A stretch of 43,915 nucleotides of DNA, taken from NCBI GenBank assembly GCA_016234115.1, contig JACRHD010000020.1:1-43915 (forward strand). The letters run 5' to 3'. The translations under genes and the position numbers were made by a program. How positions within the stretch are numbered: the stretch's first letter is position 1; each line of letters begins with the position of its first letter. The stretch comes from Nitrospirota bacterium (GTDB taxonomy: Bacteria; Nitrospirota; Thermodesulfovibrionia; UBA6902). A model generated the notes under the pieces. It was not told the origin of the DNA. It made no database searches and worked only from the letters and a program-made list of their open reading frames with translations. This document shows, one piece after another, positions 18,488 through 24,341 of the stretch.

Positions 18488-20593
18488 TTATTCATTCTGC
18501 ACAGGCAACGAAATTGTGAATGCGGTCCCTTTAGCGGGTTGACTGACGACATGTATTTTCCCGTTGTGGTCCTCTATGACCCTCTTGCTGATGGCAAGTC
18601 CCAGGCCCACTCCCACCTCCTTGGTCGTCACAAAGGGATCGAATATTTTCGGGAGGTCCTCCTGCTGAATGCCTTCGCCCGTGTCCCTGATTTCCACATC
18701 GGTATATTTGCCTCTCTCCTTTATGTCGACCCGCAAGACGCCTTCTCCGTTCATGGCCTGACAGCCGTTCAATATTATATTGCCGAAGGCCTGCTTCAAT
18801 TTCCGCGCGTCCCCCGACATTTGTATCTTTCTTCCGTTATAGTTTTTCTCGATGGCGATATTTGTCTTTTCAAATTCGAGCTTCCCCCTGACGTCTTCGA
18901 TAATTATATCAAGGAGCTCGGTCAGGTCATAGTTATTCATACGGGAGGTCTTTTTCCTCGAGGAAAAATCAAGCAGATCGCTGATAAGCCCGTCGATTTT
19001 CTCTATCTCTCCCACCACTATCCTGGAGAACGTCTCCCTGAATTCCACGTCGTTATATTTTTCAGGCATGAGCTGGGCAAAGGTCTTCAGCGAAGTAAGG
19101 GGGTTTCTTATTTCATGGGCGAAAGTCGCGGACATCATCCCTATCGACGCGAGTCTCTCCGAATTGATCTTTTCCCGGTAAAGCCGCGCGTTCTTCAGGG
19201 CGGCGGAAGTCTGGTTGGATATCGTCTTCAGCAGGTCCACGTCTTCTTTGCTGAACATGTCGCCGGAGACTTTCCCGCCCAGGACAATTAAAAGCGCAAG
19301 TTTACGGTCCACGAACACCGGGACGGCGACTTCTCCGTGAAAAGGCTCGAGGTCATTTATGATATGTTCGGCCTCCCTGTCCGCCTCTCTTCCCATACCG
19401 TCCAGCTCGTCCCTGACAATAATATCATCGGATCTCCTGTAAAAGCCGGCTATCCCCGAGCGTTTGTTTAAAAACAGCCTCTCCGCGCCGGCTGCGTCTT
19501 TATCGCCTGCGGCCCTGTGTTTGTGTTTCTTGTCCAGATAATATGCCGTCTCATATCTTCCGGAGGACGCCGTAAGGAGATAGACGCTTTTCAACCCCAG
19601 GAGATCATAAAGTGTGTCCCCTATGAATTTCAATATGCCGTCGTGGTCGAACATGCTCGCAAGCTTCGAGCTGACCTGCCTGACAGTCGCGTAGTAATCG
19701 TAGGTTTTCTTGTAGAAGGTCGAATCGATAAAACTCTGTATCCTGTGTCTCAGAGGGTTAAACAGCAGGGCGATCAGCAGGGCGGCAAAGATACTGACCT
19801 TGAAAGAGCCCGCATTCGCAAAAGTCGAGAACAGGTTTGTTATTGAAAGGACAAGGGCGACAAAAAGGCCGGTGAGAAGTCCGGCCGCCAGGGAGTACGC
19901 GGCTGTCTTTTTGAAGACGATGTTGACCTCCATGGTCCTGTATCTGATAATTGAATACGCGACTATGGCCGTAAATAATATGACGAGAAAGTCATGAGGA
20001 TAAACCTCCCGCACCCCATACGCTGAAAGGAAGTGAATAAAACCCGCGGTCCCGGCAATGACGAAGGCAATCAGCACATAAAGAAGCTGGTTCCTCTTGA
20101 ACCCCTTGACTTCCCTGTACCTCATGAAGATCTTATAGTACCCGTATATGATGGTCATCGCGAAAAAGGCAAAAAACAGATGGTACAGCGCCCCGGGGAC
20201 GATGGCAAAAGTCATCCCGGAAGGGTTGACGGACCTGATAAAATAGGGGCTGAAAGAAGAGAGCAGAAAACCGGCTGAAATCAGATAACAGGTCCTCAAT
20301 CTGTTGCGTTCTTTTGCTGCGTCATGGAGATCGATCAGGTTCAGCGCAAAAAAAAGAAATGTCGGCGGGACGAGTATCGCGGCAATATATACGACCCTTG
20401 CTATAAAGACCGGGGTCCCGATCACGTGAGACAGTCCCGTGGCAAAAGGGAACAGGGTCCAGACGCCTATAAAAAAAGTCTCGACCGCAAAAGACTTATT
20501 TACCCTGCTCCGGGGATTCTTCAGGTAAACAAACACCGCCAGGTATTCACAGATTGAAAACGCTATGAAAGAAGAAAGAGTGAAAATATTCAT
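18488..20593 (-). CDS. Multi-pass membrane sensor histidine kinase (7TM-type, GAF)
   Basis: A 701-residue kinase. About eight or nine hydrophobic helices fill residues 5-278, the first part resembling the histidine-kinase N-terminal 7TM module. A GAF region (about 300-470) is followed by HisKA with H493 in ATFAHEIRNPLTSLK and a complete ATPase domain: N-box FGNIILNGCQAM (N609), DTGEGI (637-642), GVGLGLAIS (661-669). It should therefore be active, unlike the next kinase. Architecture is reminiscent of PrsK-type kinases of PEP-CTERM systems, which is an inference only. Its ATG overlaps the reductase stop (ATGA), so sensing is coupled to the lipid-type enzymes upstream. Confidence 0.92.
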   Translation of the reverse strand: MNIFTLSSFIAFSICEYLAVFVYLKNPRSRVNKSFAVETFFIGVWTLFPFATGLSHVIGTPVFIARVVYIAAILVPPTFLFFALNLIDLHDAAKERNRLRTCYLISAGFLLSSFSPYFIRSVNPSGMTFAIVPGALYHLFFAFFAMTIIYGYYKIFMRYREVKGFKRNQLLYVLIAFVIAGTAGFIHFLSAYGVREVYPHDFLVILFTAIVAYSIIRYRTMEVNIVFKKTAAYSLAAGLLTGLFVALVLSITNLFSTFANAGSFKVSIFAALLIALLFNPLRHRIQSFIDSTFYKKTYDYYATVRQVSSKLASMFDHDGILKFIGDTLYDLLGLKSVYLLTASSGRYETAYYLDKKHKHRAAGDKDAAGAERLFLNKRSGIAGFYRRSDDIIVRDELDGMGREADREAEHIINDLEPFHGEVAVPVFVDRKLALLIVLGGKVSGDMFSKEDVDLLKTISNQTSAALKNARLYREKINSERLASIGMMSATFAHEIRNPLTSLKTFAQLMPEKYNDVEFRETFSRIVVGEIEKIDGLISDLLDFSSRKKTSRMNNYDLTELLDIIIEDVRGKLEFEKTNIAIEKNYNGRKIQMSGDARKLKQAFGNIILNGCQAMNGEGVLRVDIKERGKYTDVEIRDTGEGIQQEDLPKIFDPFVTTKEVGVGLGLAISKRVIEDHNGKIHVVSQPAKGTAFTISLPVQNE

Positions 20594-21762
20594 TTGACGG
20601 ACCTTGCGCCTGAAATAAAAAATGCAAAAAGCGTTTCAAGAAAGTTTACTGTAATCTCCGGGCACAGTATGGAGGTCCCCTTTAAAACCTCCCGCATATT
20701 ATCGTCGGTAAAAACAGGTTCCGCCGTCTCCAGATACGGTTGTATTTCCCTTAAACTGCCCGAAAAGAAACTTTCCCAGTCAGTCATAGGTATCAGGGAA
20801 AACTCGTTCCTTCCTGCAAGCCTGATTCCTGAGACGTTAAGCAGTGAGCTGACGGTTTCGTGAAGCCGTCCGAGCGTCGGCGGGTCCCGGTTTATGATAT
20901 GGTAAGTTGTGGGACCCGCTGAAGTCCGTATGCACCTGACAACGCAGTCCGTAACGTAATCGACAGGCACTATGTTCAGTGTCTTGTCCGGGTCGGCCTG
21001 CATTCTGACGGGAATGTCCAGCCTGTTGTCCCTGTATGCCGCTCCGACGGCAGACGCTCTTTTGCCGCCTCTTTCCAGGTCCTTTGCAAACAGCCCGGCA
21101 ATTAAGTGCAGCGCCTTGACATAACTGTATACGCCGTCGAACCTGGAGGCCTTTCCGGTCCTCGAATCGCCGGTCACTATCGACGGCCGGAATATCGAGG
21201 CGCTGAGATTGAATTTGTCCCGGTATTCATGTATTAATTGTTCCGCACGGAATTTGGTCTCTTCATACGAATTGTTGAAGTCCTGGCCCGTATCCAGATC
21301 ATCTTCCGTAAAAACGCCGCTGCTTTGTCCGCAGACGTATGCAGTGCTTACGTAATACAGGGCGCGTGACGGCGATTTCAACGCAATGGTAAAATCAAGA
21401 ATATTGCGGGCGCCTTCGACGTTGCATTTTTCAAGCAGCCCTTTTTCGGCTTCCTGAAAACTCGTCAGTGCCGCGCAGTGCAGGACAATATCCACATCCG
21501 AGCGCAATTTTTTCAGCGCATCTGAAGGAATGCCCATATGCTCCTGCGTCATTTCGCCGCGAATTATCTCGAACCTGTCCTGAAAATTCGCGTACTCGTC
21601 ACTGCTGTCCAGCAGATATTCCAGGCTTTGTCTGAACCTCTCCGCTGCGCCTGTCTTCCTGTCTCTTACAAGCAGTTTAAGACCGTACCCGGCCCTTAAA
21701 AGGGCGCAGGCAAGGTTTGAACCGATAAATCCGGTAGCGCCTGTCAGAAAAATTGTCTTCAC
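20590..21762 (-). CDS. Thioester reductase-like SDR (NAD_binding_4 / male-sterility type)
   Basis: A 390-residue extended short-chain dehydrogenase. It has the NADP loop TGATGFIGS (7-15), the catalytic triad region YYVSTAYV (S139/T140) and Y166-x3-K170 in NNSYEETKFRAE. The closest general type is the thioester reductase domain that releases acyl chains from carrier proteins as aldehyde or alcohol. Its position immediately after a ketosynthase and acyl carrier protein supports reductive release of an ACP-bound chain; the product is unknown. The stop overlaps the kinase start. A sugar epimerase-like role is less likely given the neighbours. Confidence 0.85.
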   Translation of the reverse strand: MKTIFLTGATGFIGSNLACALLRAGYGLKLLVRDRKTGAAERFRQSLEYLLDSSDEYANFQDRFEIIRGEMTQEHMGIPSDALKKLRSDVDIVLHCAALTSFQEAEKGLLEKCNVEGARNILDFTIALKSPSRALYYVSTAYVCGQSSGVFTEDDLDTGQDFNNSYEETKFRAEQLIHEYRDKFNLSASIFRPSIVTGDSRTGKASRFDGVYSYVKALHLIAGLFAKDLERGGKRASAVGAAYRDNRLDIPVRMQADPDKTLNIVPVDYVTDCVVRCIRTSAGPTTYHIINRDPPTLGRLHETVSSLLNVSGIRLAGRNEFSLIPMTDWESFFSGSLREIQPYLETAEPVFTDDNMREVLKGTSILCPEITVNFLETLFAFFISGARSVK

Positions 21763-21766
21763 CTGT

Positions 21767-22030
21767 TCATCCGTCTCTTTCAGATAGCCTTCGGTATATA
21801 TACGAATGAATATCGCCGACGGTCTTTATGTCCTCTCCCCCGTCCGGCGGCACGCTGATGCCGAATACGTCTTCCACGTCAAAGATCATCCTTAACAAAT
21901 CGAATGAATCTATGCCCAGGTCCTCCTTCAACTTCAACTCATCATTTATCTCTCCGATATCAATTCCCAATCTATTTGAAAGTATCTCGCCGATTTTATC
22001 TCTTATCTCCTTTTTCAACTCATCTCCCAC
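21767..22030 (-). CDS. Acyl carrier protein
   Basis: 87 residues from GTG 22030: MGDELKKEIRDKIGEILSNR, then a four-helix carrier fold with the phosphopantetheine serine S42 in DLGIDSFDLLRMI. The GTG is chosen because AGGAGG lies about ten bases upstream, and an ATG further upstream (22078) sits inside the ketosynthase gene and would add a non-conserved head. The start lies two bases beyond the ketosynthase stop, and five bases separate its stop from the reductase start. It is a dedicated carrier for the neighbouring ketosynthase and reductase rather than the housekeeping AcpP, judged by context. Confidence 0.9.
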   Translation of the reverse strand: MGDELKKEIRDKIGEILSNRLGIDIGEINDELKLKEDLGIDSFDLLRMIFDVEDVFGISVPPDGGEDIKTVGDIHSYIYRRLSERDG

Positions 22031-22032
22031 AA

Positions 22033-23319
22033 CTAATTTATACTCCTCCTGTCCGCAAACTTTCTGAAAATGATGCACGCGTTATTATTGCCCACGCCGA
22101 AAGAATTCAGCAAAGCGGTATTCAGGCGCGCCCTTCTCGGTCTGTTGGGCACATAGTCCAGATCACAATCCGGATCGGGATTTTCGTAATTGATCGTCGG
22201 CGGGATCATGTTGTTCTCCAGCGCGAGAAAACATGAAACAGCCTCTATTGCGCCTGACGCCCCTACGGTATGTCCTATCATCGATTTGATGGAACAGACC
22301 GGGATATTGTAAGCATGCTCTCCGAACACCCTTTTAATGCTCTTCGTCTCCGCCCTGTCATAAGGCTGTGTCGCGTTGCCGTACGCGCTTATATAATCGA
22401 TTTCATGAGGGTCGATGTCCGCTTCCTGGACGGCCTCATTCATGACCCTTGCGGCCTCAATACCGTCAGGCTCCGGAAGCACCATATGATATGAACCGCA
22501 GTTGGACGCATATCCTATGATTTCACCGTAAATATGGGCGTCCCTCTTGATCGCGTGAGAGAGCTCTTCCAGGACGAGAACCGCCCCCCCTTCCCCGAGG
22601 ACGAACCCGTCCCTCTTTTTATCATAGGGACGGCATGCCTTTTCCGGTAAATTGTTCTCCTTTGAGAGAAGCTGTAAATTGCAGAAGGCGCTGAAAGTTA
22701 TCGCGGTGATAGGCGCCTCCGTGCCGCCGGCAAAGACGATGTCCGCATCATTGTTCTGTATGATTCTGAACGCATGGCCTATGGCGTTGGCCCCTGAAGC
22801 GCAGGCGGTTGAAACCGACATATTAGGACCGGTAACACGAAATTCAATAGCCAGGTGGCTGGCGACGGCGTGGGTGCTGACTCTCGGCACGCTCAGGGGG
22901 TTTACCCTGTCAAACCCCTTTTGGTAGCCGGATATTATCTGCGCCTCGTGAAATAATACTCCGCCGAAAACCGACCCTATGACGACCCCCGCTCTCGACC
23001 TGTCCTCTCTTTCAAGGGCCAATTTTGAATCCTCCAGCGCCATTCGCGCCGATGCCAGTCCGAAATGGACAAAACGGTCGGTTTTTTTTGCTACATGCTT
23101 CTGGACATAATCCGTGGGGTCGAAGTCGAGGACCTGGGCGGCGATCTTCGAATTAAGGTTCGACGTATCAAAGCTCATGATCAGATCAACGCCTGATTTC
23201 GCCTCTGTCAACGCGTTCCAGAACTCGTATTTACCGATCCCGTTCGGGGCCACAACGCCCAGTCCTGTTACAACTACCCTGCGTTTTCTTATAGGCACGA
23301 TTTTTTTCTCATAATACAA
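22033..23319 (-). CDS. FabF-like beta-ketoacyl-ACP synthase with altered active site
   Basis: A 428-residue thiolase-fold condensing enzyme. The nucleophile is C173 (STACASG), with K346 and H350 in SIKSMIGHTVGASG and the C-terminal NSFGVGNNN. The first active-site histidine, normally in NAHGTST, is replaced by tyrosine (ISAYGNATQPYDRAE, Y313), so decarboxylation or substrate choice may differ from ordinary FabF. The start is uncertain: TTG 23319 gives the longest frame, GTG 23298 gives MPIRKRRVVVTGLG, closer to family starts. It is the first gene of the minus-strand cluster and diverges from the selenoprotein gene. Confidence 0.9.
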   Translation of the reverse strand: MYYEKKIVPIRKRRVVVTGLGVVAPNGIGKYEFWNALTEAKSGVDLIMSFDTSNLNSKIAAQVLDFDPTDYVQKHVAKKTDRFVHFGLASARMALEDSKLALEREDRSRAGVVIGSVFGGVLFHEAQIISGYQKGFDRVNPLSVPRVSTHAVASHLAIEFRVTGPNMSVSTACASGANAIGHAFRIIQNNDADIVFAGGTEAPITAITFSAFCNLQLLSKENNLPEKACRPYDKKRDGFVLGEGGAVLVLEELSHAIKRDAHIYGEIIGYASNCGSYHMVLPEPDGIEAARVMNEAVQEADIDPHEIDYISAYGNATQPYDRAETKSIKRVFGEHAYNIPVCSIKSMIGHTVGASGAIEAVSCFLALENNMIPPTINYENPDPDCDLDYVPNRPRRARLNTALLNSFGVGNNNACIIFRKFADRRSIN

Positions 23320-23625
23320 TTAGTGAACTTCTGACGGACAACGGGCTGGTTGATAAAAATGAGGGATTGGAGACTTCCATATGTATTAAACAATAGGCGA
23401 CTCTCCCTTTATGGATATAAGCATGCAATATAAAAAACTTTTACCAAATTCCAGTCGGTTTATAAGAAAACTTAAAGACGTTATAATTTTTAACAAATTA
23501 CAACTAAAAAATCAAGAAAAATTTACATAATAATAGCCGGCCGGTTGCTGCGGCTTCTCTTTTTCAGAAAAATGTTTTAATATATCGATTAGTATAATTT
23601 ATTAATTCGTTAAGGAGAAACAAGC

Positions 23626-23793
23626 ATGAAATGTAAGAAGTGCAATGGCGAAATTACCATTAAGATGGGTTGAAGGTCTGTCCAGATTGTCTGCATGGAA
23701 TGCAGCCAGATTTTTTCTTTGGAAGAATACATCGATCAATTAGACGCCAAGACATGGGAAAAGTTGTCGAACCGGTCCTGTAACAGGGTCTAA
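23626..23793 (+). CDS. Dual-CXXC small protein with in-frame UGA, probable selenoprotein
   Basis: From ATG 23626 a 56-codon frame ends at TAA 23791-23793 and contains one TGA at 23671-23673 (codon 16). Reading TGA as selenocysteine gives [26 protein letters not shown] and so on to NRSCNRV, with C3-x2-C6 and C23-x2-C26. This matches my memory of the small dual-CXXC (seleno)protein family, where the UGA position is Cys in other members (SCRRVRLRC type). AAGGAG (23612-23617) is at ideal spacing and TATAAT lies at 23593-23598. A hairpin starts 18 bases after the TGA. Codons continue sensibly beyond TGA with conserved [11 protein letters not shown], which argues against a dead gene. Role unknown, perhaps redox or metal binding. 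Confidence 0.78.
23674..23711 (+). promoter_or_regulatory. SECIS-like hairpin downstream of the UGA
   Basis: CTGCAT (23691-23696), loop GGA, ATGCAG (23700-23705) is a perfect 6-bp stem whose apex is 24-26 bases after the TGA. An outer pairing GGTCTG (23677-23682) with CAGATT (23707-23712) can enclose it. The spacing fits bacterial SECIS elements read by SelB; actual SelB binding is inferred. Confidence 0.5.
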
Positions 23794-23829
23794 TTCCGCT
23801 TACCGGCTTTAATTTTTTCCTTCGATCTA

Positions 23830-23859
23830 TTGACAATTACAAGGGTTTTCAATTAACAT
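23830..23859 (+). promoter_or_regulatory. Probable promoter for rplM-rpsI
   Basis: TTGACA (23830-23835), 18 bases, then TAACAT (23854-23859). A perfect TAACATGTTA palindrome overlaps the -10 (23854-23863). The remaining leader to ATG 23910 is about 45 bases and AT-rich. Confidence 0.55.
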
Positions 23860-23909
23860 GTTACGTTTTTACGTTAAAAGTTAAAAATTTATGTTTGTTG
23901 AGAGGAGCC

Positions 23910-24341
23910 ATGAAGACTTTATCTGCGAAGAGTACGGATGTTATAAGGAAATGGCATATTGTCGATGCCGATGGAATGGTCGTGGGACGCCTTGCCTCAA
24001 GGGTCGCCTCAATACTGAGAGGCAAGAATAAACCGATTTTTACTCCCCATGCGGATACGGGCGACTTCGTAATCGTAGTCAACGCGGAAAAGATACGGTT
24101 TACAGGCAATAAACTCGACCAGAAAGTATATTATCGTCATTCAGGCTATCCAGGGGGGCTGAAGGAAGCGACCGCCAGGAATGTAATGAAAAATTCTCCG
24201 GAAACTATAATCATGTCGGCAGTCAGGGGAATGCTCCCCAAGAACAGCCTTGGCAGGCAGCAGTTAAAAAAACTGAAAGTTTACAGAGGCGCGGAACATC
24301 CCCATAAGGCGCAGGCCCCTGAGACATTAATTCTGAACTAA
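23910..24341 (+). CDS. rplM: 50S ribosomal protein L13
   Basis: 143 residues, full length for L13, with [18 protein letters not shown] at the start, [17 protein letters not shown], and the C-terminal [15 protein letters not shown]. Part of the large subunit; in bacteria it is usually made with S9 from the same message, as here. ATG 23910 follows AGAGGAG; a longer frame from TTG 23895 would contain that site and is rejected. The rpsI gene follows after 20 bases. Confidence 0.98.

Follow-up and report, generated by a model that had tools for sequence, protein, structure and literature searches.

The stretch of DNA analyzed here (the window; 43,915 nucleotides of contig JACRHD010000020.1, assembly GCA_016234115.1, from a Nitrospirota bacterium) carries on its plus strand a small reading frame that is interrupted once, at codon 16, by an in-frame TGA. 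The features at this locus are:

23593 to 23598, plus strand: TATAAT, a possible but weak −10 box, without a −35 partner
23612 to 23617, plus strand: Shine-Dalgarno sequence AAGGAG, 8 nt 5′ of the ATG
23626 to 23793, plus strand: small open reading frame predicted to contain selenocysteine (Sec), NF041197 family, 55 aa and a TAA stop
23632 to 23643, plus strand: codons of the first CXXC motif (C3 and C6), from translation and alignment
23671 to 23673, plus strand: in-frame TGA, codon 16, predicted Sec from the comparison of TGA and Cys forms among homologues
23691 to 23705, plus strand: putative bacterial SECIS (bSECIS) hairpin with a 5-bp stem (CUGCA/UGCAG) and the loop UGGAA, overlapping the second CXXC codons
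23692 to 23703, plus strand: codons of the second CXXC motif (C23 and C26), TGC ATG GAA TGC, for C23-M-E-C26

Translation confirmed that the frame, as proposed in the original prediction from the nucleotide sequence, is broken solely by this TGA and yields 55 residues, and the ribosome-binding site claimed for it is present as the AAGGAG at 23612. The accompanying claim of a −10 box held in part: the TATAAT is there, at 23593, but its support as a promoter is weak, as it lacks a −35 partner and stands isolated in an AT-rich region, and a promoter scan chose another site (23459 to 23487). The gene had also been expected to be missed by standard calling, and the standard listing of open reading frames indeed contains none of at least 40 aa on the plus strand at 23626 to 23793. 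Therefore, the small selenoprotein gene probably escapes ordinary gene calling.

When the TGA was translated as Sec, the protein matched NCBIfam model NF041197 over its full length (58.8 bits against a curated cut-off of 40 bits; profile positions 1 to 53 of 53). The name of this model, “dual CXXC motif small (seleno)protein” (CxxC_Se_CxxC), fits the CXXC...U...CXXC small-protein family that had been proposed for the locus, and the window protein has the layout typical of NF041197, a Sec or Cys flanked by a CXXC motif on either side. Across 41 aligned members, C3, C6, position 16, C23, and C26 are invariant. A Pfam scan of the small protein returned nothing over cut-off, an Rfam search of 23400 to 24000 nothing relevant, and a sequence profile search of the PDB only zinc-finger and zinc-ribbon matches at chance level. 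NF041197 is listed as OS_HP3 in a 2026 review, in an entry that refers to a 2007 study (Olavius algarvensis Delta 1 symbiont), and the same review places “hypothetical protein DW” under this model too (PMC13188914). The OS_HP3 of Desulfosarcina widdelii was overlooked by the deep-Sep predictor (PMC12013277). With the same size, a full-length profile match, and Sec or Cys at the same position between two CXXC motifs, the window protein is an additional member of this already recorded selenoprotein family. It differs at the C-terminus, which reads ..RSCNRV compared with ..YTxIIYD in the Desulfobacterota-type Cys members, and the family occurs nearly throughout the window's own Nitrospirota class, mostly with the TGA.

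Exactly one TGA was present in every one of the 39 homologues found among the 47 genomes of the order. In the whole class, 192 of 230 genomes gave family matches; among the best 150 listed, 141 have one TGA and nine have no stop, and reading the loci of these nine placed a Cys at the aligned position in each case. The same holds for the Desulfobacterota-type relatives (Cys in 10/10), and the two of them that were scanned scored 80.1 and 71.3 bits with NF041197. As had been expected, codon 16 is Cys in the stop-free members. Close relatives that carry names are mostly Nitrospirota MAGs (Nitrospiraceae, Thermodesulfovibrionia, and Thermodesulfovibrionales), so that the window probably belongs to the class Thermodesulfovibrionia. 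Matches in the phylum beyond this class are few, and those that exceed the cut-off lie nearly all in one family (f25). Three genomes (G068, G093, and G166) have a second copy that is weaker or partial.

A stop of similarity at the TGA had been named beforehand as the outcome that should count against a selenoprotein, and homology was instead found to continue through it in both TGA and Cys homologues. Pairwise differences were concentrated at third codon positions (0.66 upstream and 0.58 downstream of the TGA, compared with 0.23–0.24 at second positions), which marks both sides as coding sequence. Seen in a single genome, a single change from TGC to TGA would look just like this locus, whether a Cys codon (TGC or TGT) had been mutated in a pseudogene or misread during sequencing. 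However, this explanation is refuted by the sharing of a TGA at the same codon among independent genomes of the order and of the wider class; the coding-type substitutions on either side also speak against it, leaving it a negligible probability.

Read-through of a TGA does not by itself specify Sec, and the UGA could in principle encode another amino acid, through a change of the code or natural suppression, or act as a programmed stop, the ATG at codon 24 then serving as a separate start for the downstream part. Several observations make these options very improbable: (i) the stop-free homologues carry Cys, not some other residue, at codon 16; (ii) of the 31 long stop-free frames in the window (at least 250 codons), nine end in TGA, so that TGA seems to serve as an ordinary stop here; (iii) 6 of 55 TGA forms have ACG or CTG at codon 24, which is therefore no conserved ATG start; and (iv) the upstream CXXC is conserved along with the downstream part, within one profile.

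A reading of the UGA as Sec also presupposes that the organism can decode it, and the original prediction had expected the machinery elsewhere in the genome, taking its absence as refuting. No such absence was seen: selA (617.7 bits), selB (359.5 bits), and selD (325.5 bits) were all found over cut-off, together with a tRNA-Sec (72.5 bits) with a UCA anticodon. Moreover, selD has an in-frame TGA of its own (context GG*AAK), and two formate dehydrogenase alpha subunits have one each (CARV*HAPT and CART*HAPT). These further selenoprotein genes of the same genome are:

G000:C33:32321-33232 (L010): SelD
G000:C52:24802-26805 (L105): formate dehydrogenase alpha subunit
G000:C56:12552-14555 (L106): formate dehydrogenase alpha subunit

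Given this gene content, Sec decoding is expected to be active in the source organism. Among the best 150 class members listed, selA went undetected in 5 of 9 Cys-form genomes compared with 12 of 141 TGA-form genomes (p = 0.001), a comparison limited by the incompleteness of the MAGs and the relatedness of the genomes. The absence from 12 TGA-form genomes is probably due to MAG incompleteness, and selA is present in four of the Cys-form genomes.

The hairpin that had been noted at a SECIS-like distance from the TGA corresponds to CTGCA-TGGAA-TGCAG in the DNA and can alternatively be drawn with 6 bp and the loop GGA. Its loop begins 22–23 nt past the TGA, and it falls within all limits of the published bacterial SECIS model (apical loop of 3–9 nt, upper stem of 4–16 bp, a G in the first two loop positions, 16–37 nt from the UGA, and a minimum free energy of −7.5 kcal/mol or lower), with an energy of −11.1 kcal/mol for UGA+50. 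The bSECIS of Escherichia coli fdhF is likewise a small hairpin shortly after the UGA with a G in the apical loop; its sequence is different, whereas here the second CXXC codons themselves make up the stem.

What gives the hairpin significance is comparative evidence, not the single-sequence fold, which was no more stable than shuffled sequences (z = 0.22). The complete 5-bp stem occurs in 52 of 55 distinct TGA forms, compared with 15.6 ± 2.9 expected from synonymous codon resampling and a maximum of 25 in 2000 trials. This resampling ignores phylogeny; better controls are the Cys forms and, within each gene, the sequence flanking the hairpin. In the TGA forms, the ratio of TGC to TGT is 106:4 at the second CXXC (110 Cys codons), compared with 51:59 at the first CXXC (Fisher p = 9e-18, for sequences that are not independent), while the Cys forms show no such bias (23/38 vs 19/38) and retain the full stem in just 8 of 19 cases. 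Third-position variation drops from ~0.6 in the flanks to 0.19 within the hairpin codons. The first loop position is G in 55/55 and the second in 53/55 TGA forms, although the loop GG taken alone exceeds the synonymous null by little (108 vs 103.8 ± 1.1). The RNA constraint follows the TGA and relaxes in the Cys forms, where the stem has decayed. In the window, a T-rich run after the hairpin (23691 to 23715 for both) gives it the look of an intrinsic terminator or attenuator; yet relatives retain the hairpin without the T-run, and only where the TGA is present, so there is next to no likelihood that it is a terminator and not a SECIS element.

The in-silico checks (machinery, homology past the TGA, and SECIS hairpin) were thus positive and support the selenoprotein interpretation. 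We put the probability at about 0.96 that 23626 to 23793 is a genuine NF041197 selenoprotein gene whose UGA is read as Sec, as predicted from sequence comparison, by way of a bSECIS. In such a gene, SelB carrying Sec-tRNA(Sec)UCA would decode the UGA at codon 16, with insertion directed by the hairpin at 23691 to 23705, the stem of which doubles as the second CXXC codons.

In the GTDB family to which the window belongs, almost every locus has the gene upstream of rplM-rpsI-argC, while in other families the small selenoprotein gene has different neighbors. An assignment of function from operon context was therefore rejected, the gene order being kept only within that one family. A divergent cluster on the minus strand (18488 to 23319) encodes a histidine-kinase-like sensor, a male-sterility/NAD_binding_4 reductase, an acyl carrier protein, and a beta-ketoacyl synthase, which suggests a small acyl/polyketide-like pathway; a ketosynthase or a kinase is kept upstream in several relatives. 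In several families of the class, the selenoprotein gene is closely followed by one for a CxxCxxCC (PF03692) protein or a CEGC..NCC look-alike (L055, L058, L066, L085, and L088, of which the L085 copy was scanned), and a functional link between the two is possible.

As to the product itself, structure prediction gave a model of moderate confidence (pLDDT 76.7, pTM 0.51) with a beta-hairpin between the two CXXC motifs, and the CX2C-X16-CX2C spacing matches that found in zinc ribbons. Together, spacing and model point to a fold like that of zinc ribbons, in which Sec would occupy the tip of the hairpin, and the protein is likely to be a zinc-ribbon-like thiol/selenol protein. A structure search with this model found no significant match (best E 0.15, probability 0.93); many of the nonsignificant ones were zinc ribbons and zinc fingers, among them those of RNA polymerase subunits, topoisomerase I, and ZifS. 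The weak likeness to ZifS (TTHA0897, PDB 8yoz) and to RNA polymerase-type zinc ribbons is one of fold, and these proteins are without Sec.

On this model, the two CXXC knuckles would bind a metal, and Sec16, at the tip of the hairpin between them, could serve as a redox-active selenol; the chances of such a redox role appear about even. Sec16 may pair with Cys52 near the C-terminus, a residue found in 53 of 55 TGA forms compared with 5 of 19 Cys forms and on that account a tentative candidate for its redox partner. The argument is weak because several of the Cys forms come from one genus and the Desulfobacterota C-terminus differs. Alternatively, the protein might be purely structural or regulatory in its zinc binding, with Sec as a metal ligand or tuning residue, in which case the selenoprotein call would stand. 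The zinc-ribbon spacing and the weak matches to zinc ribbons and the small zinc-finger protein ZifS favor this idea, but zinc binding alone benefits little from Sec, and a Zn(Cys)4 site would already be complete with the cysteines of the two CXXC motifs, leaving Sec free. We regard a purely zinc-binding protein as possible but rather unlikely. More speculative still is the full combination of a class-wide, mostly Sec-encoded zinc ribbon of the Thermodesulfovibrionia, in which the CXXC codons form the SECIS stem and Sec16 and Cys52 would act as a redox switch; to our knowledge, such a selenol-based mechanism has not been described for zinc ribbons.

The most interesting details of this selenoprotein gene are that it is almost universal in the class and that its CXXC and SECIS overlap. 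The second CXXC, serving both as Cys codons and as the SECIS stem, is a clean natural case of overlapping protein and RNA constraint. A gene likely to be missed by ordinary calling has been confirmed here, and its family, present in 192 of 230 class genomes and mostly in the UGA form, accordingly counts as a core gene of the class, one well suited to selenium labelling.
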